From Desulfobulbaceae bacterium (lineage in GTDB: Bacteria; Desulfobacterota; Desulfobulbia; Desulfobulbales; Desulfobulbaceae): 38,659 bases of DNA. A program made the position numbers and the translations under genes. The stretch's first letter is position 1, and each line of letters begins with the position of its first letter. Below, piece by piece: positions 11,513 through 32,752 of the stretch. The stretch covers positions 1-38,659 of the forward strand of contig WFUT01000086.1 in the NCBI GenBank assembly GCA_015484845.1, in the 5' to 3' direction. A model generated the notes under the pieces. The model did no database searches. It saw only the letters and a program-made list of their open reading frames with translations, and was not told the DNA's origin.

Positions 11513-12301
11513 GTGTGGCGCAGCCTGGTGATACTTTCCCTGCTTACTCTCCTGGCCTATGGCGGGGTACGTTTCATGTACGGTCGCCTGGAGGGGCGGT
11601 TGCAGAGCGAGATGGCCGGCACCGCGAACAAGGCGGTCCCGGTGGCCGGCGGCGGGCCGAAGCAGGTCCGGCGACCCGGCAAGCGGCCGGATTACCAGGT
11701 GATTGTCAGGCGGAACATCTTCCAGGCCCGGCTGGATCTGAAAAAAAAGGGGACCGCGGAAGGGCAGAAGCCGGAAGACCTGGCCGAGACCAGCCTGAAA
11801 CTGGCCCTGGTGGGAACGGTGACCGGCAGTGACCGGGATGCACGGGCGATAATTGTTGACGAAAAGAAGAAACGGCAGGATATTTACCAGATTGGAGACG
11901 TGGTCCAGGGGGCACTGATCAAGAAGGTTGAACGGGGACGGGTCATTCTCGAGGTGAACGGCCGCGACGAAGTATTGCTGCTCAAGGAGCGTAAGGGCGG
12001 GACAGGCAGGGAGAGCGGCTTGCCTTCCTTTGTGCCTCCTGTGTACAGGCCTCCTGTCCAGCAGCGCGATCCGTCCACGTCCAGGGAGAGAAAGGATATC
12101 CCGGTGGTCAGGCCGCACCGGCGAATCACCTTTCGCAAGGACCGGGCCCGCGAGATACGTGAACCGGTGGAACCCCTTCCTGCCGAGATTCTGCCTTCGG
12201 TGGATGATGTGACAGCGGGTGCGGCAGGGGCCGGGCAGGCCGGGGCCGGCGGGGAACAGGGAACAGGAGAAGATGAAGCTGCTCAATACCAACGACCATA
12301 A
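11513..12301 (+). CDS. gspC: Type II secretion protein GspC, HR domain without clear PDZ
   Basis: This 262-aa protein starts at GTG with GGGGAGGAG about 8 bases upstream. A membrane helix (residues ~4-22) is followed by a linker and the homology-region domain (YQVIVRRNIFQ near residue 62, then LALVGTVTGSDRDARAIIV, IYQIGDVVQGALIKKVERG, VILEVNGRDEVLLL, to about residue 157). In GspC this domain contacts the secretin N0 domain. The remaining 100 residues are Pro-, Arg- and Gly-rich and look disordered (SFVPPVYRPPVQQRDP). The stretch RRITFRKDRAREI resembles the start of a PDZ linker, but no PDZ fold follows. The end overlaps gspD by 29 bases. Confidence 0.85.
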   Translation: MWRSLVILSLLTLLAYGGVRFMYGRLEGRLQSEMAGTANKAVPVAGGGPKQVRRPGKRPDYQVIVRRNIFQARLDLKKKGTAEGQKPEDLAETSLKLALVGTVTGSDRDARAIIVDEKKKRQDIYQIGDVVQGALIKKVERGRVILEVNGRDEVLLLKERKGGTGRESGLPSFVPPVYRPPVQQRDPSTSRERKDIPVVRPHRRITFRKDRAREIREPVEPLPAEILPSVDDVTAGAAGAGQAGAGGEQGTGEDEAAQYQRP

Positions 12302-14558
12302 CGCCCGGCCGCGGGCGGCCGTGCTGCTGGTGTGCCTGCTCTGCTGGGTGCTCGTTGCTGCCGTCCCGGGAGCGCACGCGGCCGCGGCAGGGAAAAAGAG
12401 TCCCTCCGGCAGGTATGTGACCATTGATTTCAATGATGTCGATATCAACCTCTTTATCAAGTATATCAGTGAACTGACCGGAAAGAACTTCGTGGTTGAC
12501 CGGGCGGTGAAGGGCAAGGTCACCATCATCTCGCCGACCAGGATCTCCGAGGAAGACGCCTACCGGGTCTTCGAGTCCGTGCTCGAGGTGAATGGTTTCA
12601 CCACGGTTCCGGCCGGTTCGATCATCAAGATCGTGCCTGCGGTCAAGGCCCGGTCCAAGAGCATTGCCACCATCCTGAAGGGCGAAAAGACCTATCCCGA
12701 GGACAAGGTCGTCACCCAGATCATACCCCTGGCCCATTCCAATCCCGTTGAGCTCAAAAAGCTGCTGGCGCCCCTGGTCTCCAAGACCAGCGTGGTCATC
12801 GCCCACCCCGAGTCGGGTATCCTGATCATCACCGACGTTCTCTCCAATATCAAGCGGTTGCAGGAGATCATCAAGGCGGTGGACGTACCGTCCATCGGGG
12901 AGGAACTGGTGATCATGCCGCTGAAGTACGCCTCGGCCACCAATGTGGCCAAGTCGGTGGGACGGCTCTTCCTGCGGGTGGCCAAGAAGGACGCGCGGCG
13001 CGAGGTGATCAGGATCATTCCCTATGACCGGACCAACTCGCTGATCGTTTTTGCCCCCAAGTCCTATATCCGCAAGGTACGGAATCTCCTGAAACAGCTT
13101 GACGTGGAGATGCCCCGGGGCGAGGGCAGGATCCATGTCTACTACCTGCAGAACGCCAATGCCGAGGAACTGGTCAAGGTGCTGACCAACCTGCCGGACA
13201 AGCAGGGCAAGGTCAAGGGCAGGGCGCCGCCCATCTCGCGGGATGTCAAGGTGATGGCGGATGCCGAGACCAACTCGCTCATCATCACCGCCCCGCGCGA
13301 GGAGTACCAGGTGCTGGAGGGGGTGATCAAGAAGCTCGATATTCCGCGCCGCATGGTCTACATGGAGGCGCTGATCATGGAGGTGCACGTCAACAAGTCG
13401 TTCGAGATCGGTGTACAGTGGGGCGGGGCCGGCAACTTTGCCGACGAGACCGGCCAGATGTTTACCGGTTTTTCCGGGAATCCCGAGCCCAACCAGTACA
13501 ACGTGCTCAACGGCCTCAAGGCCAGTCCGCCGGTGCTGCCGGCCGGGTTCACCTTCGGTGTCATGAAGCAGGGGGTCAAGATCGGCAATGTCTACTTTCC
13601 CAACCTGGGTGCCGTGATGCGGGCCTACCGCAACGACTCTGACGTCAACATCATTGCCACGCCGCAGATCCTGACCACGGATAACAAGAAGGCCGAGATC
13701 AAGGTGGGCGAGAACGTGCCCTATATCACGAGCAAGAACACCACCGCGGCCCAGCAGGACTATACCAGCTACGAGTACAAGGACGTGGCCACCACCTTGG
13801 ACATCACGCCGCAGATCAACCAGTCGGACCTGGTGCGGCTGGATATCTCGGTGGAGGTGATCAAGCTCAAGAACCCCAACGACCTGAGTGGGCATCCGAC
13901 CACGTTCAAGCGCAGTGCCCAGACCACGGTGGTGGTCCACAACGAGGAGACCGTGGTCATCGGCGGCATGATCGGGCAGGACACGTCCAGCGGCGAGTAC
14001 AAGGTGCCCCTGCTGGGCGATATCCCGCTTCTCGGCTGGTTGTTCAAGACCCACACGAATTCCAAGGAGAAGACCAACCTGTTTATCTTCATTACCCCGC
14101 ATATTGTCGAGAATCCGGCCGAGATCGCCAGGATCTATTATCGCAAGCGCGACGTGATGGAAAAGGTCCAGAAGGGGTCCAGCAATATCCCGGACCGTTT
14201 TTTTCATCGCCGGCCCAATCCGGAACATGCCATGGCCCTGACCGATATCGGCTCTGCCAACCTGGAAAAAAAGGAGTATGGCCGGGCCAAGGAGTACTTT
14301 GAGCAGGCACTGAAGATCGATCCGAACAACCCCTATGCCCTGATCAACCTGGGCGTGGTCTATGAACACGAGGGTGACAGGGCGCGGGCCAGGTCCCTGT
14401 ACCAGAAGGTGCTCGAACTGGGACCGAAAAAGGGCGGCAAGGGCGGTGAAGGCCAGGCGGCCAGCGATTCCCTGCGGGAACTGGCCCGGGAGAACCTGCG
14501 CCATCTCGAGCAGGGGGGATCCGGAAAATCGGGCCAGGCCGGGAAGAAGGGCAGGTAG
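12273..14558 (+). CDS. gspD: Type II secretion outer-membrane secretin GspD with C-terminal TPRs
   Basis: This 761-aa protein is the T2SS outer-membrane channel. The ATG at 12273 has AGGAGA just upstream and opens a signal peptide ending near AAVPGAHA. The N0 domain (VTIDFNDVDINLFIKYISEL) is followed by N1-N3 modules (PLAHSNPVELKKLLAPLV, MPLKYASATNVAKSVGRLF, VYYLQNANAEELVKVL). The secretin barrel domain spans about residues 362-620 (MEALIMEVHVNKSFEIGVQW to IFITPHIVENPAEI), including VVIGGMIGQD. After it, residues ~645-725 form two tetratricopeptide repeats (LTDIGSANLEKKEYGRAKEY, then ALINLGVVYEHEGDRARARS) and a Lys/Gly-rich tail. That tail replaces the usual pilotin-binding S-domain. The frame is open upstream to 12219 without signal-peptide logic. 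Confidence 0.95.
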   Translation: MKLLNTNDHNARPRAAVLLVCLLCWVLVAAVPGAHAAAAGKKSPSGRYVTIDFNDVDINLFIKYISELTGKNFVVDRAVKGKVTIISPTRISEEDAYRVFESVLEVNGFTTVPAGSIIKIVPAVKARSKSIATILKGEKTYPEDKVVTQIIPLAHSNPVELKKLLAPLVSKTSVVIAHPESGILIITDVLSNIKRLQEIIKAVDVPSIGEELVIMPLKYASATNVAKSVGRLFLRVAKKDARREVIRIIPYDRTNSLIVFAPKSYIRKVRNLLKQLDVEMPRGEGRIHVYYLQNANAEELVKVLTNLPDKQGKVKGRAPPISRDVKVMADAETNSLIITAPREEYQVLEGVIKKLDIPRRMVYMEALIMEVHVNKSFEIGVQWGGAGNFADETGQMFTGFSGNPEPNQYNVLNGLKASPPVLPAGFTFGVMKQGVKIGNVYFPNLGAVMRAYRNDSDVNIIATPQILTTDNKKAEIKVGENVPYITSKNTTAAQQDYTSYEYKDVATTLDITPQINQSDLVRLDISVEVIKLKNPNDLSGHPTTFKRSAQTTVVVHNEETVVIGGMIGQDTSSGEYKVPLLGDIPLLGWLFKTHTNSKEKTNLFIFITPHIVENPAEIARIYYRKRDVMEKVQKGSSNIPDRFFHRRPNPEHAMALTDIGSANLEKKEYGRAKEYFEQALKIDPNNPYALINLGVVYEHEGDRARARSLYQKVLELGPKKGGKGGEGQAASDSLRELARENLRHLEQGGSGKSGQAGKKGR

Positions 14559-14561
14559 GAT

Positions 14562-16247
14562 ATGAAATCCCTTGGTACTATCCTGGTCGACTCCTTCGGC
14601 CTGTCCCCCGAGGCCTTGGAAGAGGCCCTGCTTGTCCAGCAGGAAAAGGGGGGCCGGTTGGGGGAGATACTTGTCCAGCAGAAGAAGATCAGCGAGGACG
14701 ACCTGCTCAGGGCCCGCAGCCAGCAGTGCGGCCTGGAGATCCGTTACAGCCTGCCGGCCGAGATCGATCCGTTTTTCACTGAGCGGGTGCCAATACAGTT
14801 TCTGAAGAAATTCAGGATGATTCCCGTGGCCACACGGCAGGAGTCCTACATCGCCATGGCCGAACCCTTTCACCTGCAGCAGCTCGATGACCTGCAGCGG
14901 ATCCTGCACTGGGAGGGAATGCGCCAGATCCTGGTACCGCAGAACGAGATCTTTGTCGCCATCAATACGGCCTATGATCTCAGCCGGGACGACGCCGACC
15001 AGGTCATGCAGGATATCGACGAGGAGGATCCGGAGTCCATCATCTCGGAGATCGAGGAGACCGCCGACCTGCTCGATGATACCAGTGACGCGCCGGTGAT
15101 CAAGCTGGTCAACCTGATGCTCTCGCAGGCGGTGCGCGACAATGCCAGTGATATCCACATCGAGTCGTGCAAGGACCGGGTCAAGATCCGCAAGCGGGTG
15201 GATGGCATCCTCTATGACATGTACTCTGCACCCAAACACGCCCAGGGCAAGCTGATCTCGCGGATCAAGATCATGGCCAGGATGGATATCGCCGAGCGGC
15301 GGCTGCCCCAGGACGGCCGCATCGAGATCCGCATCGCGGACAAGAACGTTGACCTGCGGGTCTCCACCCTGCCCACGGCCTTTGGCGAGCGGGTGGTCAT
15401 GCGGCTTCTCGACAAGTCAAGCGTTCTCCTGAGCCTGACCGATATCGGCATGTCGGATCGTGACCTGGCGATCTTCAACGACCTGATCAAGGCCTCGCAC
15501 GGTATCATCCTTGTGACCGGCCCCACCGGCTCAGGCAAGACCACCACCCTGTACAGTGCCCTCAGCGAGATCAACAGGCCTGATATCAATATTATCACGG
15601 TGGAGGATCCCATTGAGTACCAGATCGACGGCATCAGCCAGATGCAGGTCAATGCCAAGATCAACCTGACCTTTGCCAACGGCCTGCGCACCATTGTCCG
15701 CCAGGACCCGGATGTGATCCTCATCGGCGAAATTCGCGATCTGGAGACAGCCGAGATCGCGATCCAGTCGGCCCTCACCGGGCACCTCGTCTTTTCCACC
15801 CTGCACACGAACGACGCAGCCAGCGCAGTTACCCGGCTCATTGACATGGGCATCGAGTCGTTCCTGGTCACCTCCTCCGTGAATGCCATCCTGGCCCAGC
15901 GATTGGTGCGTAAGATCTGCGACAACTGCCGGGAGGAGTACGAGGCCACGGACGGGGAACTCGCCACCATCGGCCTTACCCGCGAACAACTGGCCGGAAG
16001 GCCGCTCCAACGCGGCAGCGGCTGTCCCGAATGTCTCAATACCGGCTACCGTGGCCGCCTGGGTATATTCGAGCTCATGCTCCTGGACCAGGACCTGAAA
16101 AGTCTCATTTTGGCGACATCCGATGCGGGCCAGATCAGTCGCCAGGCCAGGGAAAACGGTATGCTCACCCTGCGCGAAGACGGCATCAACAAGATCCTGG
16201 CCGGCATAACCACCATCGAAGAGGTCTTCCGGGTTACCCAGGATTGA
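14562..16247 (+). CDS. gspE: Type II secretion ATPase GspE
   Basis: This 561-aa cytoplasmic ATPase powers pseudopilus assembly. The N-terminal T2SSE-N domain (residues ~1-150) ends in an acidic linker (DIDEEDPESIISEIEE). The core has APVIKLVNLMLSQAV, the Asp-rich SDIHIESCKDRVKIRKRVDG, the Walker A GPTGSGKTTTL near residue 320, the Asp box ITVEDPIEY, the Walker B ILIGEIRDLETAEIA and the His box TGHLVFSTLHTNDA. A CxxC...CxxC zinc subdomain (CDNCREEY near 452, CPECLNTGY near 487) is intact. The length is typical. It starts three bases after the gspD stop and is the last gene of the operon; no gspF follows. Confidence 0.97.
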   Translation: MKSLGTILVDSFGLSPEALEEALLVQQEKGGRLGEILVQQKKISEDDLLRARSQQCGLEIRYSLPAEIDPFFTERVPIQFLKKFRMIPVATRQESYIAMAEPFHLQQLDDLQRILHWEGMRQILVPQNEIFVAINTAYDLSRDDADQVMQDIDEEDPESIISEIEETADLLDDTSDAPVIKLVNLMLSQAVRDNASDIHIESCKDRVKIRKRVDGILYDMYSAPKHAQGKLISRIKIMARMDIAERRLPQDGRIEIRIADKNVDLRVSTLPTAFGERVVMRLLDKSSVLLSLTDIGMSDRDLAIFNDLIKASHGIILVTGPTGSGKTTTLYSALSEINRPDINIITVEDPIEYQIDGISQMQVNAKINLTFANGLRTIVRQDPDVILIGEIRDLETAEIAIQSALTGHLVFSTLHTNDAASAVTRLIDMGIESFLVTSSVNAILAQRLVRKICDNCREEYEATDGELATIGLTREQLAGRPLQRGSGCPECLNTGYRGRLGIFELMLLDQDLKSLILATSDAGQISRQARENGMLTLREDGINKILAGITTIEEVFRVTQD

Positions 16248-18526: not shown

Positions 18527-18570
18527 CGTGACACCACGACACAAAATTCCCTGGACACAACCAACGGTCT

Positions 18571-18598
18571 GTGGCATGGTAGTGGCCGACCATGCCAC
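18571..18598 (+). promoter_or_regulatory. Hairpin burying the transposase start codon
   Basis: A perfect 10-bp stem, gtggcatggt (18571-18580) and accatgccac (18589-18598), encloses an 8-base loop. The ATG at 18592 lies inside the 3' arm, and the likely ribosome-binding bases lie in the loop. Such structures reduce transposase translation from read-through transcripts in IS10/IS50-type elements; this role is inferred here. Confidence 0.55.
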
Positions 18599-20658
18599 GC
18601 AGCCTCGAACGATTCAATCATGCCACCATTGAGTGGATAAAGACAACCATCGCCACCCGGCCTGAGTTGTCCCGCCACCAGCTTGCAGTGGAGGTCTGCC
18701 AACGCCTGGACTGGTGGACAGGCAGGGGCCTGCCTGCCACGGCTTCATGCTCCCTGGCCCTGAGGAAGCTGGAAAGATATGGCCTGATTACCCTGCCTCG
18801 ACCACGTACAGAGCGATGGAACGGGTCCGGAGAAAGACAACCGGTCCAGCCCTACCACCGGCCCGCATTCAGCGGAAGCCTTCAGGATCTGGGCACAGTA
18901 CGCCTGACCATGGTTGATGGGAACCGCGACAAACGGCACCTGTGGGAGAGACTGATGGAATCGTTTCATCCCCATGGTTCCGGACCATTGTGCGGAGCAC
19001 GTATTCAGTATATTATCGAGAGCAATCATGGTATCCTCGGAGCGATCGGGTTCAGCAGCGCTGCCTACCGGCTGCGGGACCGGGAGCGATGGATCGGCTG
19101 GGATGACAATACCCGGGACCGCCACCTCGGTCTGGTGATCAACAACAGCAGGTTCTTGATTCTGCCCCAGGTACGGGTCCCGAACCTGGCCTCGTTTCTG
19201 CTGGCCAGGGCCGTCAAGACGGTATGCCGTGACTGGCAGGCGACCTATGGCCAGAGACCGGTGCTGATCGAGACCTTTGTGGATCCTGTACACCACAGGG
19301 GAACATGTTACCTGGCCGCCAACTGGCGGCACATCGGGCGCACCAGCGGCCGGGGACGAAGGGACAACAATGACGATCTCTCCCCCAAAGAGATCTTTGT
19401 CCTGCCCTTGACCGCTGACTGGCGCAGTCGCCTCGGGGGCAGAGAGCCGACTCCGCCCAGGGACTGGATCGAAGCGGAACTCGCCAATACCGGGCTGGGT
19501 GACAAACGACTGCACCGCCGGGCAATCAGGTTGTGCCGTGAATTTTATGCCAACCCCCAAGCTCTGCTTCACCAGGCATGCAGGGGAGAAGCGGCCCTGA
19601 AAGGGGCATATCGGTTCTTCCGTAACCAACGGGTTGATATGGCATCGATTCTTCAGGGACATTACCACTCCACCACAGAGCGGGTCAGAAAGCACAAGGG
19701 CGTTGTCCTGGCCGTTCAGGACACGACCTCCCTGAACTATAACGCTATCCGCAGCGCCCAGGGGCTGGGACCCATCGATGCCAAGAAGACCCAGGGACTG
19801 CTGGTGCACGATACCATGGCCTTCACCGACCAGGGGGTTCCCCTTGGCCTGATCGATGTCCAGGCCTGGGCCAGAAAAAAGAAAGAATTCCGCAAGGTCC
19901 CCGAAGGCATCAAGTGGCTGCACAGCCTTGGTGCCGCCAGGACATTGCAGCAGACCTGCCCGGGCAAAAAAATCGTCAGTGTCGGGGACCGGGAGGCCGA
20001 TTACTATGAACTGTTTCTGGAGACACAACAACCGGCAAGCCCCGACCTGCTCGTCCGGGTTCAGCATGCCCAGTCCCTGGCCGACAGCGAGGAGAATCTC
20101 TGGACACACATATCAGATTGCCCCCTTGCCGGCATACAGGAAGTTCGTGTTCCGGCCAAAGCCGGGCGCAAGGCGCGGGTTGCCCGGCTGGATATCCGTT
20201 TCGATCAGCTAACCCTTGCTCCGCCGAAAAGCAAAACAGGCTCTGATCCCGTTACCCTGTGGGCGGTTTCGGCCCGTGAGCGGAAGAAACCTGCCCGTGG
20301 CAGGCGTCTCGAATGGCTGTTGTTGACCACGGTGGCCGTGGAGAGTTTCGAAGAGGCCTGCGAACGGTTGAACTGGTACGGTGTCCGCTGGGGAATCGAG
20401 GTTTATCATCGTACGCTCAAGAGTGGCTGCCGGATCGAGGATCGTCTTCTACGTCATGGTGACGCGATCAAATCATGCCTGGCCCTGGATATGATCGTGG
20501 CCTGGCGGGTTTACTTTCTGACCAAGCAGGGCCGCGAGATACCGGATTGGCCCTGCACCGAGCTGCTGGAAGAGACAGAGTGGAAGGCCTTGACCGCCCA
20601 CATCGATAACAATGCCTCTCCGGCGGATCCCCCACCTTGGGCGAGGCCATGGTCATGA
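18592..20658 (+). CDS. Fusion transposase: DUF4338 (DruA-like) domain plus Tn5/IS4 DDE domain, C-terminus frameshifted
   Basis: This 688-aa protein has two parts. Residues ~90-285 match DUF4338, the family of the Druantia protein DruA: a WERLM...HPHG segment, RDRERWIGWDDNTRDRHLGL, NNSRFLILPQVRVPNLAS, ETFVDP, GTCYLAANWRHIGRTSGRGR. Residues ~290-688 are a Tn5-type transposase: WIEAELANTGLGDKRLHRRA, AYRFFRNQRVD, then DDE residues Asp377 (VQDTTSLNY), Asp466 (VGDREADYY) and Glu603. The YREK motif is exact (Tyr596, Arg599, Glu603, Lys610), and the D-D-E spacings (89, 137) are close to those of Tn5 (91, 138). The C-terminus is off frame. From about 20634 the expected TLGEAMVMIARLDGYM and, after a TGA at 20694, GPPGTTTSWRGLVALDWLSG continue in another frame to a stop at 20777. 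The dimerisation end is therefore probably lost. Confidence 0.85.
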   Translation: MPRSLERFNHATIEWIKTTIATRPELSRHQLAVEVCQRLDWWTGRGLPATASCSLALRKLERYGLITLPRPRTERWNGSGERQPVQPYHRPAFSGSLQDLGTVRLTMVDGNRDKRHLWERLMESFHPHGSGPLCGARIQYIIESNHGILGAIGFSSAAYRLRDRERWIGWDDNTRDRHLGLVINNSRFLILPQVRVPNLASFLLARAVKTVCRDWQATYGQRPVLIETFVDPVHHRGTCYLAANWRHIGRTSGRGRRDNNDDLSPKEIFVLPLTADWRSRLGGREPTPPRDWIEAELANTGLGDKRLHRRAIRLCREFYANPQALLHQACRGEAALKGAYRFFRNQRVDMASILQGHYHSTTERVRKHKGVVLAVQDTTSLNYNAIRSAQGLGPIDAKKTQGLLVHDTMAFTDQGVPLGLIDVQAWARKKKEFRKVPEGIKWLHSLGAARTLQQTCPGKKIVSVGDREADYYELFLETQQPASPDLLVRVQHAQSLADSEENLWTHISDCPLAGIQEVRVPAKAGRKARVARLDIRFDQLTLAPPKSKTGSDPVTLWAVSARERKKPARGRRLEWLLLTTVAVESFEEACERLNWYGVRWGIEVYHRTLKSGCRIEDRLLRHGDAIKSCLALDMIVAWRVYFLTKQGREIPDWPCTELLEETEWKALTAHIDNNASPADPPPWARPWS

Positions 20659-20836
20659 TAGCCCGCCTTGACGGATATATGCCCCAATCTTCTTGAGGCC
20701 CACCCGGGACAACAACCAGCTGGCGTGGTCTGGTGGCCCTTGACTGGCTGAGCGGTGCCTGGAAGTTCTTCGGTTAACCACTACCCCATCGGGGGCAGGA
20801 TAACGTTCAGGGAGAGTTGTGGGTAAAAGCCAGTGT

Positions 20837-21205
20837 TCAAGGGAGCGTTGTTGTGAGGAAAAGGATACAGTGGTACAGGTCTTTTTCGTCTGGGTTATAT
20901 ATCTGAAACTGCGTTGTTATCATATCTGCCACCGTTTCGTCAACCGTCTGAAAAAGGTACTGATGATCATCCTGTTTGGTGCCTGGAATGTAGCGGAGAT
21001 CGTGACGCTGTAACTCCCGAATATGGGGTGCGTTGGAACTCACGCTATCTTCGATGACAATGGTCTTGAGGGACGGGTGCTCCCAGTGAAAATCATCCAG
21101 GTACCTTTTGGCGGCATTACGCTCACAGGCATTCTTGTTGCTCCCGTCCTGCCTGATGATCATCTCTGAACAGGAGGGGGGCACCTCGGAATGGTTATGA
21201 TAGCG
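20837..21205 (-). pseudogene. Transposase fragment, truncated at both ends
   Basis: Read on the minus strand this gives YHNHSEVPPSCSEMIIRQDG, then NKNACERNAAKRYLDDFHWE, IVIEDSVSSNAPHIRELQRH and LRYIPGTKQDDHQYLF. This is the middle of a large transposase family that I recognise by its QDG..KNDCERNAAKR and EDxxxSNxPHI blocks but cannot name. The N-terminal part is missing (stop at 21206-21208), and the C-terminal part ends at the right end of the DUF4338 element, which therefore probably inserted into it. The opposite flank of the element (18207-18526) shows no continuation, so a deletion is likely. Confidence 0.6.
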
Positions 21206-21254
21206 TTATTCAGTCTATCTGGAGCTATTAAGGAGAATAATGAGGTAACTTATT

Positions 21255-22283
21255 ATGAATAAATGGAGTAGTCAGCGTGTTCTCATTACTGGCGTATGCG
21301 GTACAATTGGAAAAGAGTTGCTTCGGCAGCTTGTTCTTCGGGAAGCTCTTGAAATTATAGGGATTGATAATAACGAGACCGAGTTATTTTTCCTGAGTAA
21401 TAAATATCAGGGATGCAAAAATGTGCATCTTTACCTGGGGGACCTGAGGGACAAGGATAAATTGATGAGGAAGACCCAGGGGGCCAATATTATTTTACAT
21501 GCTGCAGCATTGAAGCATGTTATTTTATGTGAAAAAACTCCGAGAGATCCTGTTTTGACCAATATTCTCGGCACACAAAATGTTATTGATGCTGCTACTG
21601 CAAACGGTGTAGATAGAGTTATTTTTACCTCCTCTGACAAGGCAGTGAATCCAACCAACGTGATGGGAACCACCAAGCTGATGGGGGAACGTCTTATGAC
21701 CGCAGCGAATGCTCATCGGCACAGGAGTGATCCTATTTTTGCCTCGGTACGTTTTGGCAATGTACTGGGGTCGAGAGGATCGGTGATTCCTATTTTCCGA
21801 AAACAGATTGAGGAGGGTGGACCGGTTACCTTGACGGATTCCGGCATGACCCGTTTTGTTATGACTGTGGAAAATGCTGTTTCTCTGGTTCTTAATTCTG
21901 TCTTCATGGCTTGTGGTGGAGAGGTTTTTGTCACTAAAATGCCCGCCATACGCATCCTGGATCTCGCCAGAGCAATGATCGAGTTGCTATCAGGCAGTAA
22001 TCGTGATATCGAGATCAGGATCATTGGCACTAAACCTGGTGAAAAACTCTATGAAGAATTGATGAACGAGGAGGAGACACGGCGAACACTGGAGTTGGAT
22101 AACTATTTTGTTGTTCTTCCTGCATTCAAGTCTGTATATGAGTCAATCAGGCATGAGTATCCAGGAATGGGCAAAGTCGGGATTGAAGCACCGTATAATT
22201 CCTCCATCCAACCCGTACTGGATGTGGAACAATTAAAAGAATACCTGTTTAAGAATAATCTGTTACTGGCAGAAGGATTATGA
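21255..22283 (+). CDS. Short nucleotide-sugar 4,6-dehydratase (UDP-GlcNAc type, SDR)
   Basis: This 342-aa soluble SDR protein is of the polysaccharide-synthesis (CapD/FlaA1-like) family. The NAD(P) loop is VLITGVCGTIGKELL (residues 9-23). The active-site region SSDKAVNPTNVMGTTKLMGE near residue 126 has Met in place of the usual catalytic Tyr, as in WbpM/PglF-type dehydratases. VRFGNVLGSRGSVIPIF and PGEKLYEEL are further family marks. It probably makes UDP-4-keto-6-deoxy-GlcNAc (or its C5 epimer) for the amino-sugar branch that uses the aminotransferase at 30910. GAGGTAA lies about six bases before the ATG. Its stop overlaps the next start (ATGA), so the two are translationally coupled. It opens the polysaccharide locus. 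Confidence 0.85.
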   Translation: MNKWSSQRVLITGVCGTIGKELLRQLVLREALEIIGIDNNETELFFLSNKYQGCKNVHLYLGDLRDKDKLMRKTQGANIILHAAALKHVILCEKTPRDPVLTNILGTQNVIDAATANGVDRVIFTSSDKAVNPTNVMGTTKLMGERLMTAANAHRHRSDPIFASVRFGNVLGSRGSVIPIFRKQIEEGGPVTLTDSGMTRFVMTVENAVSLVLNSVFMACGGEVFVTKMPAIRILDLARAMIELLSGSNRDIEIRIIGTKPGEKLYEELMNEEETRRTLELDNYFVVLPAFKSVYESIRHEYPGMGKVGIEAPYNSSIQPVLDVEQLKEYLFKNNLLLAEGL

Positions 22284-23428
22284 AGGTGCTTATCTTGGGA
22301 GGTGATGGCTACCTCGGTTGGCCAACGGCTATGAATTTGGCTGCAAAAGGTCATGAAGTCTACGTCGTGGATAATTATCTGCGCAGGAATATATCCAGGA
22401 TGACTTCATCCGAGGCTCTGGTACCTGTGCCTAATTTGAATGGAAGGGCAGAAATATTCAAGGCACTGACTGATAGGGAAGTTTTGGTGAAAATTGGAGA
22501 CTGTGCCGATTATCGCACCATGGAGCAGGTTGTAAGGGATTTTCTTCCTGATGCAGTTGTTCACTATGCTGAGCAGCCGAGCGCTCCCTACTCGATGAGT
22601 GGTTTTAACGAGGCGCGTCTGACGTTAAACAACAACCTAGGCGTAACATTCAATCTGATATGGGCTGTACTTGAACACGTGCCTGATTGCCACATTATCA
22701 AACTTGGTACCATGGGCGAGTATGGGACGCCGAACATTGATATTGAGGAAGGATGGCTGGATGTCGAACATAAGGGAAGAAAAGAAAGATTTCTTTATCC
22801 CCGTCAGGCAGGCAGTCTTTACCATACCACCAAGATTCTGGATACGGATCTGCTATGGTTTTATGTCAGGCTGTATGGCCTGAGGGTGACAGATCTGATG
22901 CAGGGTCCTGTGTATGGTCTTTCCACCGATGAGGCCGACCTAGACGTCCGCTTGCGTCCCCATTTTAATTACGATGATATTTTTGGTACTGTAGTTAACC
23001 GATTTTTGGTACAGGCTGTCGCTGGTGTTCCTTTGACTGTCTATGGCAAGGGTGGGCAGACTCGTGGATACTTGAATCTGAAAGATACCCTGCAGTGTGT
23101 GACGCTGGCCTTGGATTCTCCGGTGGAAAAAGGCGAATTGCGAATCCTCAATCAGTTTACTGAACAGTTTTCAGTCAACGAGCTGGCGCAAAGAATAGCC
23201 AGGGTCGGCAACCAGATGGGGCTTAAGGTGCAGATTCAGTCCATCGCGAATCCGCGTAAGGAAAAAGAAGAGCATTATTATAATGCCGCGCATTCAGGAT
23301 TGATTGATCTTGGGCTTCAGCCCCATTTTATGACAGATGATGTTATCCATTCCATGATCAAGCAAGTTATGGAATATAAAGATCATATTGACATAAAGAA
23401 GATTCTGCCTCGTGTCAGGTGGAGTTAG
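22280..23428 (+). CDS. sqdB: UDP-sulfoquinovose synthase (SQD1/SqdB/Agl3 family)
   Basis: This 382-aa SDR enzyme is expected to join sulfite to UDP-glucose to form UDP-sulfoquinovose. Similarity to plant SQD1 is extensive: GGDGYLGWPTAMNLAAKGHE and VVDNYLRR at the NAD site, EQPSAPYSM, KLGTMGEYGTPNIDIEEG near residue 143 (the SQD1 catalytic Thr), YHTTKILD near residue 180 (catalytic Tyr and Lys), DLMQGPVYG, VYGKGGQTRGYLNLKDT and LNQFTEQFSVNELA. The C-terminus also aligns (EEHYYNA, then LGLQPH). Length and all key residues match, so the activity is likely. Context is a polysaccharide locus, not sulfolipid genes, which suggests sulfoquinovose in a surface glycan, as with Agl3 in archaeal N-glycans. 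AAGGA precedes the ATG, which overlaps the previous stop. Confidence 0.92.
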   Translation: MKVLILGGDGYLGWPTAMNLAAKGHEVYVVDNYLRRNISRMTSSEALVPVPNLNGRAEIFKALTDREVLVKIGDCADYRTMEQVVRDFLPDAVVHYAEQPSAPYSMSGFNEARLTLNNNLGVTFNLIWAVLEHVPDCHIIKLGTMGEYGTPNIDIEEGWLDVEHKGRKERFLYPRQAGSLYHTTKILDTDLLWFYVRLYGLRVTDLMQGPVYGLSTDEADLDVRLRPHFNYDDIFGTVVNRFLVQAVAGVPLTVYGKGGQTRGYLNLKDTLQCVTLALDSPVEKGELRILNQFTEQFSVNELAQRIARVGNQMGLKVQIQSIANPRKEKEEHYYNAAHSGLIDLGLQPHFMTDDVIHSMIKQVMEYKDHIDIKKILPRVRWS

Positions 23429-23546
23429 GTGTGACCCCCTTCCTTTTGCTGTGTATCCAGGTAGCAGGCTGCATCTTGTTTTTCGGAGTGTAAGAGGATG
23501 AGGGCTAGGCTTGAGACATGAACTTTTAATAATTGGGTGGTTATAG

Positions 23547-24503
23547 ATGATTCATGAAGACTTGGCTCCATTATTTATCTTTGGATGTTATCGCTCTGGC
23601 ACATCCCTGTTGCGTCTTATTCTTAATTCTCATCCAAAAATTTTTGTTCCTGAAGAGACAGTATTTATCCCCTATATAGGTGCGAATCTGGAAAAATATG
23701 GATGTTTGGCGCAGCGGCGAAATCTTATGCGTCTATTGCAAGATATCTTGCTGATTCTACGTAAAAAATCTAAATGGGAGACAGTGCCTGACTCTCAGAA
23801 AATATTAAATTTTCTGACCGAAGATCCCGATTATGCCGAAGTGATTCGTGCCGTTATTTTAGCCATGGCAGAAGGCGATGTAAGCAGTTTGAAATATTGG
23901 GGGGATAAGACACCCAGGTACATTAACTCATTGCAGTATCTTAATTTTCTTTATCCAAACGCCAAGTTTATCAATATTGTGCGGGATGGCAGGGACGTGG
24001 CCGCCTCGGTGAAGAAAGAGCCTTTTTGGGGCGGTCGAACGCCGCTTATGGTTGCGGAAGAATGGAATTATCGGGTGCTGAACGGCCTTCTTGGAGAGTT
24101 GTCGCTGGGGCCGGAACGTTTTTTCACATTACAGTATGAGAAACTGGTTTCGGCACCTGAGGATACATTAAAGGATGTTGTTAATTTTTTAGACATAGAA
24201 TTTGATGAGAAGATGCTGATGTTTTACAAGACATCATCGGCAAAAAAGTTGACTCGATTTAAGCGTCATAAGAATGTAGAGAGACCAATTAGCACTAATT
24301 CTATAGCAAGATATAAAAATATGTTAACAAAAAAGGAGTTGGAAGTTTTTGAAAATGAAGCTGGAAATACTTTATTGGTATTAGGCTATGATGTTGATAT
24401 AAAATATTCTAGGTATATGAGGGTTTATCATAAGCTATACGATTATGTTATACGAATTTTTAACGGGGTGATGCATTTTGTTGCGGTAAAGGTGAAGGGG
24501 TAA
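23547..24503 (+). CDS. PAPS-dependent sulfotransferase (Sulfotransfer_3 family)
   Basis: This 318-aa protein has the 5'-phosphosulfate loop FIFGCYRSGTSLLRLILNSH at residues ~10-29 and the 3'-phosphate motif FINIVRDGRDVAASVK near residue 145. Further family marks are YWGDKTPRY and FFTLQYEKLVSAPEDTLKDV. It probably transfers sulfate from PAPS to a sugar of the exported glycan. There is no signal peptide, so the reaction would be cytoplasmic, on a precursor. GGGTGG lies about six bases before the ATG. The preceding 118-base gap (23429-23546) shows no clear promoter. Base composition turns AT-rich here and stays so through the next gene, unlike the operon to the left, suggesting separate acquisition. 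Confidence 0.88.
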   Translation: MIHEDLAPLFIFGCYRSGTSLLRLILNSHPKIFVPEETVFIPYIGANLEKYGCLAQRRNLMRLLQDILLILRKKSKWETVPDSQKILNFLTEDPDYAEVIRAVILAMAEGDVSSLKYWGDKTPRYINSLQYLNFLYPNAKFINIVRDGRDVAASVKKEPFWGGRTPLMVAEEWNYRVLNGLLGELSLGPERFFTLQYEKLVSAPEDTLKDVVNFLDIEFDEKMLMFYKTSSAKKLTRFKRHKNVERPISTNSIARYKNMLTKKELEVFENEAGNTLLVLGYDVDIKYSRYMRVYHKLYDYVIRIFNGVMHFVAVKVKG

Positions 24504-24509
24504 TTTGTG

Positions 24510-25853
24510 ATGCACAAGATCTGTGTTAATATTCTTATGATATTTATCTTTTTGATGCCATTGCAAGGTATTTTTATTTTTGACTCAATTGCCACGTATG
24601 CAGCAAAATATTTTGCAATTTCCATTTTGTGGATTTTTTCAGCCGTTATTTTTCTATATAAACCTAAAAAAATTTCATCTGAAGTATTTCATTTAGTATT
24701 ATTTGATCTGTGTTTTTTGGTTATTTCGTTAGTATCATTATGGGTTAATGGGTCTGGCTTACACGGCTATGCTAAATCATGGTTTACTTTTTTGACTATT
24801 AGTATTGCTCCTTTGGTTTTGTTAATTTTTTCTTATGAAGAAAATCTTCCTCGTGTTCAGAAAAATAGTATCAATATACTTTTACTTGGTATTTCTTTTG
24901 TTATTGTTGTCTCGTTTTTGTATTATTTTACTAGGTATTCTTGGTTAATCCCCAGTACTTTTCTGAATCGTTCCACCCGTCTTTATGGAGCCATCAAGAG
25001 TCCAAATGCACTCGCCCTATTCTCTGTTGTTGGTATTGGATGTGTAATTGTTGGCATTCAGTATAACTGGTTTGAGCGCAAGGTCTCCGCCACTTTTTTG
25101 TTTCTCTTCTTTTATGCCTTGATTACCTCATTAAGTAAATCGGTATTCATGTCAGGATGTTTGGCTGCTCTCGTCTGGTACTGGCTGGCCAGGCGCTGGA
25201 AAATACGCTGGCCAAAGGGTATGTCTTTGCTTTTATCTGGTGTGTTTGTTGTTGCTTTGTTTTTTGCCTCGGTTTCAATTTTGTGGAAACAGTATAAGAA
25301 ACCGCTGAAAAGCCCAAGACTTCAAGAGCATGTCGTATCTGTGAAAAACATACCCAAGTGGAAATACTTTAATCCTAACAATAAATTGCTAGGTATTCTG
25401 AGAATCAAACCTCAAGTTTTAAAGACCGGCAATAGATTGGGCGTCTGGAAGGCAGGGTTGCGTATCACCTCCGAACATTGGCTGGCAGGAATAGGACAAT
25501 TCAACTGGAAGCAAAGGTTGGCAGAAAAAGGCTACGAAGACTATGACTCGCCACATAATGGTTTTCTGGAGATAGCCGGTGGCCTTGGAGCCTTTGGTGC
25601 CCTCTTGTATTTCATTGTGCCTGTTTGGCTGATAAGAACGGCTAATAGACTGCTCAGTACAACTACTTTAAGTATTGCTGTCGTATCCATGGTAGTTTTT
25701 TATCTTGGCAGGGAGTTAACTACTGTAAGTGGAATATTCGCTTTTTCTATCAACGGGATGCTTTTTTGGTTTCTTGTTGGTTTTTTTCTATCATTTGCAT
25801 CTAGTTCAATGGGCAGCGCCAGGTCAGTAAGCCAACCTCATAGGTCCTGTTGA
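24510..25853 (+). CDS. Wzy-like O-antigen polymerase/ligase membrane protein
   Basis: This protein of about 447 aa has roughly ten to twelve hydrophobic segments, beginning ICVNILMIFIFLMPLQGIFI. The Wzy_C signature is present: LYGAIKSPNALALF in the middle, a large loop around residues 265-320, then ITSEHWLAGIGQFNWKQR and DSPHNGFLEIAGGLGAFGAL. It probably polymerises or transfers lipid-linked glycan repeats at the periplasmic face. A GTG directly before the ATG could also start it; AAGGGG lies 6-9 bases upstream. It follows the sulfotransferase after three bases and is equally AT-rich. The MITE at 25891-26136 begins 37 bases after its stop. Confidence 0.82.
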   Translation: MHKICVNILMIFIFLMPLQGIFIFDSIATYAAKYFAISILWIFSAVIFLYKPKKISSEVFHLVLFDLCFLVISLVSLWVNGSGLHGYAKSWFTFLTISIAPLVLLIFSYEENLPRVQKNSINILLLGISFVIVVSFLYYFTRYSWLIPSTFLNRSTRLYGAIKSPNALALFSVVGIGCVIVGIQYNWFERKVSATFLFLFFYALITSLSKSVFMSGCLAALVWYWLARRWKIRWPKGMSLLLSGVFVVALFFASVSILWKQYKKPLKSPRLQEHVVSVKNIPKWKYFNPNNKLLGILRIKPQVLKTGNRLGVWKAGLRITSEHWLAGIGQFNWKQRLAEKGYEDYDSPHNGFLEIAGGLGAFGALLYFIVPVWLIRTANRLLSTTTLSIAVVSMVVFYLGRELTTVSGIFAFSINGMLFWFLVGFFLSFASSSMGSARSVSQPHRSC

Positions 25854-25890
25854 ATTTTCTATATGATAGATTCTTTTTGTCCTACTATTC

Positions 25891-26136
25891 CCTGACAATT
25901 ACCCACAAATTGCCCTGGACAATACGCTGCAAATAAAGATACATTTTCAATGTGTTACGATAATCCATCCTTTAATAAAGCAAAAACAGCATGAATAACA
26001 ATATCGGGAGGCGGTTTATAGTCACAAGCAAACTACCATGCGTTACTGATCAACTTTTTGAAAATCAAAGCAAATATTCAAAAATTCCTGGATCGCCCCA
26101 TATGTTATCCAGGGAGAATTGTGGGTAGTTGTCAGG
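25891..26136. mobile_element. 246-bp MITE related to the DUF4338 insertion element
   Basis: Terminal inverted repeats of 28 bases (25891-25918 and 26109-26136) begin cctgacaa and share tacccacaa and ccctgg; they pair with about six mismatches. The element is flanked by the 6-base direct repeat ctattc (25885-25890 and 26137-26142). The core of about 190 bases is AT-rich and has no ORF. The ends match those of the transposase-bearing element at 18527-20834, so it is probably a non-autonomous relative. It fills the 308-base gap between the polymerase and flippase genes and ends 25 bases before the flippase start codon. Confidence 0.75.
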
Positions 26137-26161
26137 CTATTCCCCATAATGCAGATTATGC

Positions 26162-27493
26162 ATGAAATCATCAAGCCGTTTTAAGCGTAATATTTCCTTT
26201 AATGCACTCGCCACTGCCAGTGGATCGGTAATTCAGTTTATCCTTATTCTGGTTCTAACCAGGCTGCTTTCCGTCGATACCTTTGCTGGTTTTGTCACCG
26301 CTTCCGCTCTGGTGGGGGTGGCTGAAATGACATCGGATTTTGGTGTCCGCATCTGGGCGGTGCGCCGTTTTGCCCTTGGAAAGTCCATTGGTGAAACCTT
26401 GTTTCTCGCTCTTGTTGCCAAGGGAGTTTTCTCCCTGTTGATGGCAACTGTTGTTCTTTTGATTCCGTGGCAATTGTTAAATTTTATTGAGGCTGTCCTG
26501 TGTGTCCTTATTGCGGTCACCCAACCCGCCACGGATCCTCTTCTCTGGTTTTTACGAGGCACGGAAAGGCTGGATGTTGAAGCCGTTTCTGTTCTTTTGT
26601 GGCGGGTTGGCAATGCTCTGCTGTTGTCGATAACAGCCTGGTTTGGTGTTGATCTTTCATTGCTGTTGCTGTGCTGGCTGTCAAGCAACCTCTTGCGGCT
26701 TTTTTTTGTATCTCGCCTACCGCTTGTCGGTAAACTGGTGGTTAGCTGCCGGCAGATCATGGCCTCGGCGGTATTGCGGAAGGTTCCGGGAGTTCTTCAA
26801 AAGGCCTTCCCAATCGGCTTGGCGTTTTTGTTGATGGCCTTTTATCAACGGTTGGGTGTGTTCTCGCTGGGAATACTCGGGCAGACAAGAGATGTGGCAC
26901 TGTTCGGGGTTGCCTTTGTCTTGGTTACTTCGGCGGGATTTCTGGCTACCAGCATAACGGTTGCATCGTTTCCTTCCCTTGCCAGATGTATAGAGACCGG
27001 GCGCTACCAGGATGCAGAACTTATTGTCCGTCGTAAGATACGGCTGATAGCCTTGCTCTTTTTTCCTTCCTGCATATTGGGAGCACTGATCGCTCCCTGG
27101 TTTATACCAATTGCCTATCCTGCCGCGTATCTGCCGGCAGCCTCGGTGGTCATCGGATTGGCACCTGGGCTTTATATTTCAGCCATCAATTTTGCCTTGA
27201 AATATCTTCTTAACGCCTTGCATCTCAATTGGCTTGATGCCTGCTCTGTTGTGGTCGGTGTGACTACTTTTTTATGTGTTCTCGTCCTTCCAGAATGGAA
27301 ATCTTTGCTTGATGGTGCTGCATTTGCCTGGTGTGCAGGTGAAATGTCGATATTTATCGCAAAGTGTTATGCTCTTTATCGTGATGGTCGTCTACCTGTC
27401 TCAATCCTTATTGGTTACTTTTGCTTGTTTGTTTTACTCTGGGGGATCCTTGTTGCGATGAAGGATCATATCCTGGCATTTTACGGATGCTGA
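26162..27493 (+). CDS. wzx: Wzx-like polysaccharide flippase
   Basis: This 443-aa multi-pass membrane protein is of the MOP/polysaccharide-synthesis family. The N-terminus RNISFNALATASGSVIQFIL, then VLTRLLSVDTFAGFVTASAL and DFGVRIWAVRRFAL, is the usual Wzx opening. About twelve hydrophobic segments follow, with YQRLGVFSLGILG near residue 225 as in flippases. It should move undecaprenyl-linked glycan units across the inner membrane. No ribosome site is evident before the ATG at 26162, and the MITE ends only 25 bases upstream, so the native leader has probably been altered. GC content returns towards 50% here compared with the AT-rich polymerase gene before it. Confidence 0.85.
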   Translation: MKSSSRFKRNISFNALATASGSVIQFILILVLTRLLSVDTFAGFVTASALVGVAEMTSDFGVRIWAVRRFALGKSIGETLFLALVAKGVFSLLMATVVLLIPWQLLNFIEAVLCVLIAVTQPATDPLLWFLRGTERLDVEAVSVLLWRVGNALLLSITAWFGVDLSLLLLCWLSSNLLRLFFVSRLPLVGKLVVSCRQIMASAVLRKVPGVLQKAFPIGLAFLLMAFYQRLGVFSLGILGQTRDVALFGVAFVLVTSAGFLATSITVASFPSLARCIETGRYQDAELIVRRKIRLIALLFFPSCILGALIAPWFIPIAYPAAYLPAASVVIGLAPGLYISAINFALKYLLNALHLNWLDACSVVVGVTTFLCVLVLPEWKSLLDGAAFAWCAGEMSIFIAKCYALYRDGRLPVSILIGYFCLFVLLWGILVAMKDHILAFYGC

Positions 27494-27517
27494 TCAGGAA
27501 AGTTTATTGGAGGAAAA

Positions 27518-28402
27518 GTGGTTGCAGAAAATGATTATCCTTTGGAATACCTGGAATTTTGTCCATTATGCCATGATGAATCTTTTTCTCTTTTTGCCGA
27601 ATCAAATGGGTTTCGGATTGTAGAGTGCCCGAGATGTACTCTTAAGTTCGTAAATCCACGTCCTTCTGAACAGGAGATCAAGAATCACTTCGAGAACGAA
27701 TACATTGATGACGAGAAGAGGGTGGATGTTGACTTCACCAGTTATCGGGAAAAAAGTCTACATCGTGAAGCCGAGGCCATTAAAAAACTTTTAGATAGCG
27801 GGGGAAGACTTCTTGATCTTGGGGCTGCATCAGGATATTTCCTCTCCTGTTTCAGTGATTCACCAGAATGGGATGTAGAGGGGGTTGAGCCATCCCGTTA
27901 CGCGGCTGCGTCGGCACAACGCAAGTACGGCGTCAATGTACACCAGGGCTTTCTAAGCGACCAAAACTTTGCCGGAGAGGCCTTTGATATCATAACGTCA
28001 CTGGATTCGTTCTGCTTTCATCCGAATCCCGGGAAAGATCTCCGGGAAATAGTCAGGATTTTGAAACCGGGAGGTTTTTTTTGCGTCGAGATACCCGGGC
28101 TTAACTTTCGTCTCCTGAAAAACAAGGGCCTTGTCGCACGACTGGTGTATGGGGAGAGGGTCCGGCTGAATGCCGGCGTGCACCTATTTTATTATTCAAG
28201 ATCCACCCTGGGCGCATTTGCCGAAAAATTTGGTCTTGAAGAATCGTGTTTTTTCCCTGAACAGTCCCCGCTGTATGGAAACATTGCCATAAGGTTTCTT
28301 AATCATGCTTATTACTTGTTTTCTGCCGCGACGTATCGCCTGTCGAATGGAAATCTGAATGTAGTCCCCAAAGAATTTATCATTTATCGCAAAGTGATCT
28401 GA
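27518..28402 (+). CDS. SAM-dependent methyltransferase with N-terminal zinc ribbon
   Basis: This 294-aa protein starts at GTG four bases after GGAGG. The N-terminal zinc ribbon has CPLC (residues ~16-19) and CPRC (residues ~37-40), then LKFVNPRPSEQEI. The Rossmann methyltransferase domain shows motif I GGRLLDLGAASGYFL near residue 95, the acidic loop VEGVEPSRYAA, and IVRILKPGGFFCVEIPG. This architecture is common among methyltransferases in glycan and O-antigen loci that methylate sugars, so it likely caps or decorates the exported polysaccharide. The stop overlaps the next start (ATGA), indicating coupling with the acyltransferase-like gene. Confidence 0.85.
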   Translation: MVAENDYPLEYLEFCPLCHDESFSLFAESNGFRIVECPRCTLKFVNPRPSEQEIKNHFENEYIDDEKRVDVDFTSYREKSLHREAEAIKKLLDSGGRLLDLGAASGYFLSCFSDSPEWDVEGVEPSRYAAASAQRKYGVNVHQGFLSDQNFAGEAFDIITSLDSFCFHPNPGKDLREIVRILKPGGFFCVEIPGLNFRLLKNKGLVARLVYGERVRLNAGVHLFYYSRSTLGAFAEKFGLEESCFFPEQSPLYGNIAIRFLNHAYYLFSAATYRLSNGNLNVVPKEFIIYRKVI

Positions 28403-29280
28403 TGAGCTCAGAAAGTTACGCCTCTTTTCTCCGGTCAATGGGGCATGATGTCGTCCAGCAGGGTGATCTTTGGTGGTTTGATGTGCAGAGACACATTTAC
28501 ATGAGTTTTCCTTTCCACCGGGAGGTAGATGCCCGACATCTGGATAGGAATACCATTTTTCGCCAGGGAGCGTGGGTATTGCGTTTCCCCTGTCCTTTGT
28601 CCCAGGGACGCCAGAGTTACATATTGCTGGCCTCGAACAAGGATTATGATCTGTCGCACCTGTCCGGAAAGGCGAGAAATCAGACCCGCCGGGGTCTGGA
28701 GGCATGTACTGTTGAACAGGTCGATTTTGCTGACCTGTCTGAAACAGGAATTCTGCTGAATCGTGAAACCATGGAGCGTCAGGGCCGTTCTGTTCCCAAA
28801 GGGCATGATGCGTACTGGAAGAAATACTACCAGCAGGCCGCCAAAACGAAGGGTGCTGAGGCTTGGGCAGCTTTTTACAAAGGACAGATGGTGGCGTTTA
28901 TCATCTCCTTTCTCCTCGATGGATGTGCGAACATTCTTATCGTTCGTTCCAGTAGGGATTTTTTGAAGTATTACCCAAATAATGCCTTGATGTATGTATA
29001 CTTGCGTGAAACATTAAAGCGATCTGGTGTTGACAAAGTATCAATTGGCCTGGAGTCTTTGCAGCCGGGCCTTGAAGGTCTGGATCATTTTAAGCTAGGA
29101 ATGGGATTTGCCAGAAAACCTATTGGTCAACGAATAGAATTTAACAGAACTCTTTATTTTTTTATGAGAGGACCATTGTTAAGGTTTGCCTCGTCGCTCG
29201 CATCAAGAAAGCCCAATGATGAGCGTTACCGAAAAATTTCTGGACTTTTGCAATGGTATGGTGATCAAAAGATATTGTAA
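28402..29280 (+). CDS. FemAB/GNAT-like acyltransferase (Acetyltransf_6 type)
   Basis: This 292-aa cytoplasmic protein resembles the FemAB-like GNAT group often found in exopolysaccharide loci. Visible marks are LSGKARNQTRRGLEACTVEQ near residue 90, LNRETMERQGRSVP near residue 118, WAAFYKGQMVAFIISFLLDG near residue 155, and SSRDFLKYYPNNALMYVYLR near residue 185, with the C-terminal half matching better than the N-terminal half. A role in N- or O-acylation of the amino sugar made by the neighbouring dehydratase and aminotransferase is plausible but not shown. It overlaps both neighbours by a few bases, so it sits firmly within the same transcription unit. Confidence 0.65.
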   Translation: MSSESYASFLRSMGHDVVQQGDLWWFDVQRHIYMSFPFHREVDARHLDRNTIFRQGAWVLRFPCPLSQGRQSYILLASNKDYDLSHLSGKARNQTRRGLEACTVEQVDFADLSETGILLNRETMERQGRSVPKGHDAYWKKYYQQAAKTKGAEAWAAFYKGQMVAFIISFLLDGCANILIVRSSRDFLKYYPNNALMYVYLRETLKRSGVDKVSIGLESLQPGLEGLDHFKLGMGFARKPIGQRIEFNRTLYFFMRGPLLRFASSLASRKPNDERYRKISGLLQWYGDQKIL

Positions 29281-30515: not shown

Positions 30516-30579
30516 GTAGGACCACAAGACAAACTTTTCATGGATATATTCATTCCACCTCGGGCACCAGTCCGGTTAG

Positions 30580-30761
30580 GCCAAGGCTGTTTATGATCCG
30601 CTTCTGGACAAGGAACATCATGCGGTCATCCGTTCACTGGCCTTTACCTGGCTGTGAGTCATCCATCGTTGCTGGCACGTGCGAATCACGCATGATGAGG
30701 CAAAATATCCCTGGTCTCTGGTCAAAAAATCAGTCGCTGCTATTGCGGTGTATTCAGTGCG
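30580..30761 (+). pseudogene. Decayed transposase C-terminal fragment
   Basis: Translating from 30580 gives AKAVYDPLLDKEHHAVIRSL, AFTWL, a TGA stop where Arg is expected, then VIHRCWHVRITHDEAKYPWS. The RSLAFkWxRVxxRCW...YDEAKY pattern resembles the C-terminal end of IS110-like transposases; the family name is tentative. It has an in-frame stop at its start (30577) and no N-terminal part, so it is a dead remnant. It occupies the gap between the GT2 and aminotransferase genes. From 30762 to 30909 nothing else is recognised. Confidence 0.45.
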
Positions 30762-30909
30762 GTGCCAACATGTTGGGATTTGGCGGCTTTTTTGGTAATT
30801 TTTTGAAAGTACATGGGGAAAATCTGGCATGGCATTTTAAGATTGACGGCCTGCCGCTAGAAGTCTGTGACGACTTGGGGACTGTCAAGGCATACGGGTG
30901 AACTCTGCC

Positions 30910-32100: not shown

Positions 32101-32752
32101 CGGGTCTTCGGCCAGCCGGCTCAGGAAGAATAAGAATAAAGCCTCATTTTACCTGCGCACAGGTAAGGGCATGTTTGATCGCGCCGCGGCGCTGGCAGGG
32201 CTTGTGCTTTTCTCTCCGCTCTTTCTGGTTGTCGCCGTAGCTGTCAAGCTTGATTCTCCTGGCCCTGTTTTTTTTGGCCACAAAAGAGTGGGACGAAATT
32301 TTATTCCTTTCAAGGTGCTTAAATTTCGTTCCATGGTCTGTGACGCTTCCCGTACAGGACCAGCGATTACCAGGGGAGGAGATCCGAGAATTACCCGGGT
32401 CGGCAAGGTACTTCGCGCCAGCAAGATTGACGAATTGCCCCAGCTTGTCAACGTGTTGCTTGGCCAGATGAGCCTTGTGGGGCCTCGACCGGAAGTTGCC
32501 CGTTATGTAGAAATGTTTGCCGAGGATTATAGGGAAATATTGACCGTATGCCCCGGCATAACTGATTATGCGGCTCTCGAATTCAGGGATGAGGAAGCCC
32601 TGCTGCAGGGCTTCAAGAGTATGGAAGATGCCTATATTAATATAATCATGCCTGCCAAGATTTCATTATATAAGAAATATATCAGTCGCATCGGCTTCTG
32701 CGAGGACCTGCGAATCCTGATGCGCACCTTTTTTCTGCTTCTCAGGCGATGA
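32087..32752 (+). CDS. Priming phosphoglycosyl transferase (bacterial sugar transferase)
   Basis: This protein of about 221 aa has one re-entrant membrane helix ([21 protein letters not shown], residues ~32-52). The monotopic PGT signature follows: [26 protein letters not shown], then the catalytic Asp-Glu in [20 protein letters not shown] and [13 protein letters not shown], and [14 protein letters not shown]. It transfers a sugar phosphate, probably a UDP-linked amino sugar, to undecaprenyl phosphate and so starts the repeat unit. The frame is open to 32036 inside the aminotransferase; the ATG at 32087 overlaps that gene by 14 bases and gives the usual length. A later ATG at 32171 would cut into the domain. 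Confidence 0.88.

Follow-up and report, generated by a model that had tools for sequence, protein, structure and literature searches.

The insertion element and its fusion gene

The window, by which we mean the whole 38,659-nucleotide stretch of Desulfobulbaceae DNA that was analyzed, contains a decayed copy of an IS4/Tn5-type insertion element of 2306 bp (positions 18528 to 20833, forward strand). DNA similarity to a relative in HyVt-474 (L003/G440) is limited to these tips, with abrupt limits at 18528/18529 and at 20833. The element is located between type II secretion genes (secretin and GspE; 12219 to 16247) and a polysaccharide biosynthesis cluster (21255 to 37464). Its tips are imperfect terminal inverted repeats (GTGAC... 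and CTGGC...); the left repeat (18528 to 18556, forward strand) is GTGACACCACGACACAAAATTCCCTGGAC, where L003 has CTGACACC..., and the right repeat (20805 to 20833, reverse strand) reads CTGGCTTTTACCCACAACTCTCCCTGAAC inward, with L003 having CTGAC on both sides. Against the outside end of Tn5, the left end matches at 11 of 19 positions in the window and 13 of 19 in L003, and the right end at 14 and 15 of 19, respectively. The flanks of the window element, GTCCTAATC and TGTTCAAGG, show no target duplication, and the window genome has one copy of the element; these features, together with a broken C-terminus (see below), indicate that this copy is old, and it is probably no longer mobile. The region from 18528 to 23428, comprising the element and flanking polysaccharide genes, is nearly identical to a contig of MAG S143_11 (L004/L037; 98 to 99% for the element). 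S143_11 sits in another genus of the family, and the shared element region reflects either transfer or a binning error.

Intact relatives of the element are mobile. One of them, a 2406-bp element in genome G285, resembles Tn5 at its ends and is flanked by GTACTCCTC, a perfect 9-bp duplication. A 172-bp non-autonomous deletion derivative of the window element (L051; G429:C363:9964-10135) retains the two ends, and its flanks, GGCATCGGC and GGCATCGGG, form a near-perfect 9-bp target duplication (8/9). Retention of both ends in L051 and the duplication in G285 argue that the added domain described below travels inside the transposon. Within the fusion family, a subgroup (L008, L009, L222, and L224) has CTGCCC tips with CTAG or TAG a few nucleotides beyond the tip in both flanks, which suggests a preferred CTAG-centered target and an 8-bp duplication.

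The element encodes a single uninterrupted frame of 688 aa with an ATG start (18592 to 20658; this ORF and its parts are on the forward strand). As recognized in a preliminary description of this DNA, the frame joins a DUF4338 domain to a Tn5/IS4 transposase with exact D-D-E and YREK residues, and Pfam, NCBIfam, and the residues themselves agree on this; PF14236 (DruA/DUF4338) matches residues 63 to 259 (E 1.1e-35; 123.7 bits, cutoff 27). Residues 1 to 75 (18592 to 18816) form a winged-helix-like segment according to AlphaFold2 and alignments, with high-pLDDT helices at residues 10 to 22, 28 to 38, and 50 to 62; in the alignments, this segment is common to stand-alone DUF4338 proteins and is missing in ISAs1 fusions. 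It is followed by the core that carries the DruA/DUF4338 label and resembles a Mom-like GNAT (residues 90 to 285; 18859 to 19446), by the Pfam Tnp_DNA_bind domain (PF14706; residues 291 to 348; 19462 to 19635), and by an RNase H-like DDE domain, assigned by NCBIfam and alignment to residues 349 to 679 (19636 to 20628). The NCBIfam model for IS4 transposases, NF033590, matches residues 338 to 679 (305 bits versus a cutoff of 160; E 7.6e-91), and D377, D466, and Y596-R599-E603-K610 are all in place.

Comparison with the 86%-identical L003 reveals a 4-nt deletion in the window copy near 20620 to 20630, and the ancestral frame contains an in-frame TGA (20694 to 20696) ahead of its terminal TAA (20775 to 20777). 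The C-terminal Tn5 dimerization end, recognizable as PF02281 in the relative L054, has therefore been lost, leaving a broken C-terminal end from 20620 to 20777, and the ORF in the S143_11 copy (L004) is truncated identically. The span of 18592 to 20777 given previously is thus correct at its start, whereas its end is that of the ancestral frame. Between the window copy and L003, dN/dS is 0.16 for the N-terminal segment, 0.19 for the Mom-like core, 0.06 for Tnp_DNA_bind, and 0.15 for the DDE domain; the low values in both the Mom-like and DDE parts argue that the extra domain has been kept by selection just as the transposase has.

Relationship of the N-terminal domain to Mom and DruA

On sequence profiles and predicted structure, the core of the added domain (about residues 90 to 285) is a GNAT fold related to Mom of phage Mu. 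DUF4338 was noted earlier as a GNAT-like domain (PMC10853773), and Mom has been described as a GNAT acylating the N6 position of adenine, with nuclease fusions in jumbo phages (PMC7824862). The link to Mom was obtained via Pfam, HHalign, and fold comparison. In HHalign, a set of 26 stand-alone, IS-associated DUF4338 proteins matches 10 phage Mom proteins at 97.5% (E 5.8e-12, 165 columns), and a set of IS701 and ISAs1 fusions matches Mom at 97.6% (E 3.9e-12). With the Pfam Mom model (PF25680), 13 of these 26 proteins are hit at E<=0.01, and one ISAs1 fusion lies above its cutoff (31.8 versus 27.1 bits); with the window protein giving no match to the Mom HMM in the Pfam search and this fusion exceeding the cutoff, the IS-borne domains are best described as a sister group of Mom and not as Mom itself. 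Mom-like domains on five viral contigs (L145, L149, L152, L159, and L162) lie at the C-termini of longer, partly nuclease-like phage proteins and are intermediate in sequence between Mom and the IS-borne domain; another, L164, has a weak match to REase_MTES_1575.

AlphaFold2 models of residues 1 to 289 and 90 to 289, built from 12 input sequences, are confident for the helices of the N-terminal segment and as far as about the middle of the core, with pLDDT <50 beyond residue 230. Structural comparison places phage Mu Mom (8bv8) at the top of the PDB matches of both models (Z 9.7 and 9.8; rmsd 3.1, 122 residues). The rest of the list consists of GNATs, several of them less than 1 Z unit from Mom, and the fold alone thus identifies a GNAT and not Mom; assignment to the Mom side comes from the sequence profiles and residues. 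Foldseek alone gave weak GNAT matches (best E 2e-3), and probing PDB sequences with the DUF4338 profile yielded nothing credible. Window residues H126, R187, S201, D231, Y240, and N244 correspond to Mom H48, R101, S114, D139, Y149, and N153 in the numbering of the sequence record, and the columns of H126, R187, Y240, and N244 are invariant in 34 Mom, Mom-like, and DUF4338 sequences. PDB numbering of Mom appears to be that of the record plus 10, judging from the aligned ranges and the lack of a serine at record residue 124, so that S201 would be equivalent to S124 of the structure, the S124A mutant of which is titled as inactive. A conserved NLAS motif replaces the glycine-rich acyl-CoA loop, as it does in viral Mom-like proteins.

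The preliminary description had proposed that the domain supplies DNA recognition, that is, that it is a catalytically silent recognition or regulatory module helping the transposase to find its ends or targets. We consider this unlikely. Although the winged-helix-like segment of the Tn5-type fusions and stand-alone forms would fit such a role, and Druantia DruA shows that loss of the Mom residues can occur in this family, these residues are invariant in essentially all sampled IS-borne members, which is unexpected for a pure binder; moreover, the ISAs1 fusions keep the core without the winged-helix segment, and the transposase has a Tnp_DNA_bind domain of its own. Recognition by the core is therefore unsupported, with the predicted winged-helix-like residues 1 to 75 and Tnp_DNA_bind being better candidates for DNA binding. 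That the domain is instead an acyltransferase acting on a protein, whether a host factor or its own transposase, seems quite improbable: proteins and small molecules are indeed what most GNATs acylate, and many GNATs are among the structural matches, but both profiles and residues place the domain nearest to Mom, which modifies DNA, and the usual acyl-CoA loop is replaced by NLAS just as in the viral Mom-like proteins.

DruA proper, taken from annotated Druantia operons, matches the IS-borne family in HHalign (96.3%, E 1.5e-9) and has no detectable match to Mom (0.8%). It has lost the Mom residues except for the tyrosine; placement of the histidine column could shift by a few positions, but no histidine is conserved there in any case. 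The PADLOC DruA model matches the window protein at only E 0.009, and the window protein does not have the residue pattern of DruA proper (a GGK loop and no Mom residues) but has NLAS and the Mom residues. No Druantia genes (druB to druE) were found beside the window ORF, the scanned neighbors being type II secretion and polysaccharide genes. In terms of sequence, the IS-borne domains are a bridge between DruA and Mom, and since DruA is related to them but is without the Mom residues, the label is misleading as to the function of the window protein; a match to PF14236 does not by itself make a protein Druantia. Among the 258 genomes of the class that were sampled, 47 carry PF14236, with the majority of the inspected copies being IS-borne. 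The fusion had been put forward, on condition that DruA folds act on transposon ends or host DNA, as a direct clue to an anti-phage protein family; it is a real functional clue, but for Druantia, whose DruA lacks the Mom residues, an indirect one.

DUF4338 domains among transposon families

Association with transposases is recurrent. In a set of 94 distinct DUF4338 domains, partly collected by querying with the fusion protein and therefore biased toward its relatives, 73 are fused to or beside a transposase, and five transposase families are represented. Fusions account for 28 (14 Tn5, 8 IS701, and 6 ISAs1), and 45 adjoin transposase genes (32 IS66, 9 ISLre2, 3 ISAs1, and 1 IS701); 13 are without a transposase (one true DruA, and 12 stand-alone genes with none nearby using the seeds employed) and 8 lie at contig edges. 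Loci from a class-wide search with PF14236 alone (L166 to L193) give the same picture. In a matched subset of 40 larger loci, a same-strand transposase from one of these families is fused or within 700 nt for 29 of 40 DUF4338 ORFs; among control ORFs drawn from those loci, the figure is 1 of 43. Apart from the Tn5-type fusions, the fusion partners of the domain are IS701-type DDE_5 and ISAs1-type transposases, and stand-alone genes of ~300 aa lie beside or overlap IS66 and ISLre2 (UPF0236) transposase genes, with arrangements including tnpA-tnpB-DUF4338-tnpC in IS66. Units of a stand-alone DUF4338 gene and a transposase are present in multiple copies in the complete genome G331. In one locus (L073; G134:C39), ISLre2-type and IS66-type elements abut, each with its own DUF4338 gene (1831 to 2829, reverse strand, and 2853 to 3878, forward strand), the two frames being divergent and 23 nt apart.

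A tree built from 84 domains places the Tn5, ISAs1, and IS701 fusions in one clade each (SH-aLRT 94, 98, and 97, respectively), the IS701 clade including one split gene, and the IS66 association is scattered across the tree. The three separate fusion clades indicate at least three independent fusions, and, judged from these relationships, a probable Mom-type enzyme has been acquired repeatedly by insertion sequences. Our literature searches, with ISfinder and most subscription journals outside their scope, recovered no earlier account of insertion sequences carrying a DUF4338 or Mom-like domain.

There is a slim chance that the domain is cargo of benefit to the host or replicon, through defense or anti-restriction, and is merely IS-borne, as DruA is in defense islands. 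The family is shared with Druantia DruA, some stand-alone genes have no detected transposase, and Mom shields phage DNA from restriction (PMC6483171). Against this stand the three or more in-frame fusions, the close or overlapping same-strand position with the transposase gene, and the lack of Druantia genes in the surroundings. A search for inverted repeats flanking 10 stand-alone genes that lack a transposase found no convincing ends except at L124, where a 15/16 inverted repeat has an IS66-like remnant alongside.

Full-length fusion relatives, about 35 to 86% identical to the window protein, occur in many other genomes, including a sample of 395 from the phylum; L054, within the family, is 51% identical, and a second phylum-level sample, apparently from another phylum, contains four more. 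That similar fusions might already be in databases proved correct, as illustrated by WP_216644545.1, which is recorded plainly as 'ISAs1 family transposase'. In phage and plasmid collections, the query P0001 found no full-length fusion; the plasmid search gave one ISAs1 fusion and one solitary DUF4338 gene, and Tn5-like relatives on plasmids are without the ~290 extra N-terminal residues. The solitary gene lies on Thiodictyon plasmid pTs485 (L127:3974-4849) beside integrase, IS91, and IS4 transposase genes, with no transposase of its own recognized among these neighbors. Two paralogous Tn5-type fusions in G210 (L067:2115-4247 and L011:1348-3567) have open frames and a conserved Mom-like domain but have lost the DDE/YREK residues, with a dN/dS of 0.33 between them, and have perhaps been domesticated. 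The window contig comes from a fragmented MAG of 233 contigs, and an assembly chimera had been raised beforehand, but an assembly or annotation artefact can be dismissed because independent full-length homologues are present in many genomes and that in G285 is flanked by its perfect 9-bp duplication.

Proposed function and comparison with known systems

The best explanation, in which we have modest confidence, is that the domain is a Mom-type GNAT that puts a small group on DNA bases for its carrier transposon. The N-terminal domain would thus be a probably active, predicted enzyme, and by analogy with Mom, the modified site may be adenine N6, although a Mom-type enzyme might act on another nucleic acid or on protein. 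In the window element, the Mom-like domain would act while tethered to the Tn5-type transposase, and in IS66 and ISLre2 elements, the enzyme would be made from a separate adjoining gene; either tethering, or translation beside the transposase, would bring it to the ends or the target. The likeliest benefit would be that the DNA of the transposon, and of the surrounding replicon, is marked by its own enzyme, and the mark could confer protection from host nucleases or control over the ends and targets chosen by the transposase. Dam methylation controls transposition of Tn5 and Tn10, and such control, or protection from restriction as for Mu, are both possible.

The presence of the same domain in several unrelated transposon families suggests that they mark DNA chemically. 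More broadly, and held only tentatively, these may be self-marking insertion sequences, whose transposition complex modifies bases at its own ends, the target, or the surrounding replicon and thereby escapes restriction or controls transposition. Were they self-marking, DruA would be a relative of a mobile enzyme, and the Mom chemistry would have been lost on entering defense. This links insertion sequences, phage DNA hypermodification, and the anti-phage protein DruA, which are usually separate fields, and predicts an additional layer of transposon biology.

Among known systems, the element belongs with the Tn5/IS50 group of the IS4 family, with which it shares the DDE domain with YREK, Tnp_DNA_bind, ends of CTGAC type (13 to 15 of 19 matches in L003 to the Tn5 outside end), and, in its relatives though not at the window copy, a 9-bp duplication; it differs in having ~290 more N-terminal residues, comprising the winged-helix-like segment and the Mom-like GNAT core. 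This core shares with the phage Mu Mom family (PF25680; 8bv8) the GNAT fold and the H, R, S, D, Y, and N active-site residues, but is carried by insertion sequences and not phages, is fused to or beside transposases, contains an extra RDxxIGW segment, and has RFLILP around the arginine where Mom has ELNRMW. With Druantia DruA, it shares the Pfam family PF14236 and a motif of RDKWIGW type, but DruA has a GGK loop in contrast to NLAS and is encoded together with a helicase in an operon of several genes. The jumbo-phage Mom-nuclease fusions (PMC7824862) similarly join a Mom core to a DNA-cutting enzyme, with an REase-type nuclease as the partner where the IS-borne fusions have a transposase.
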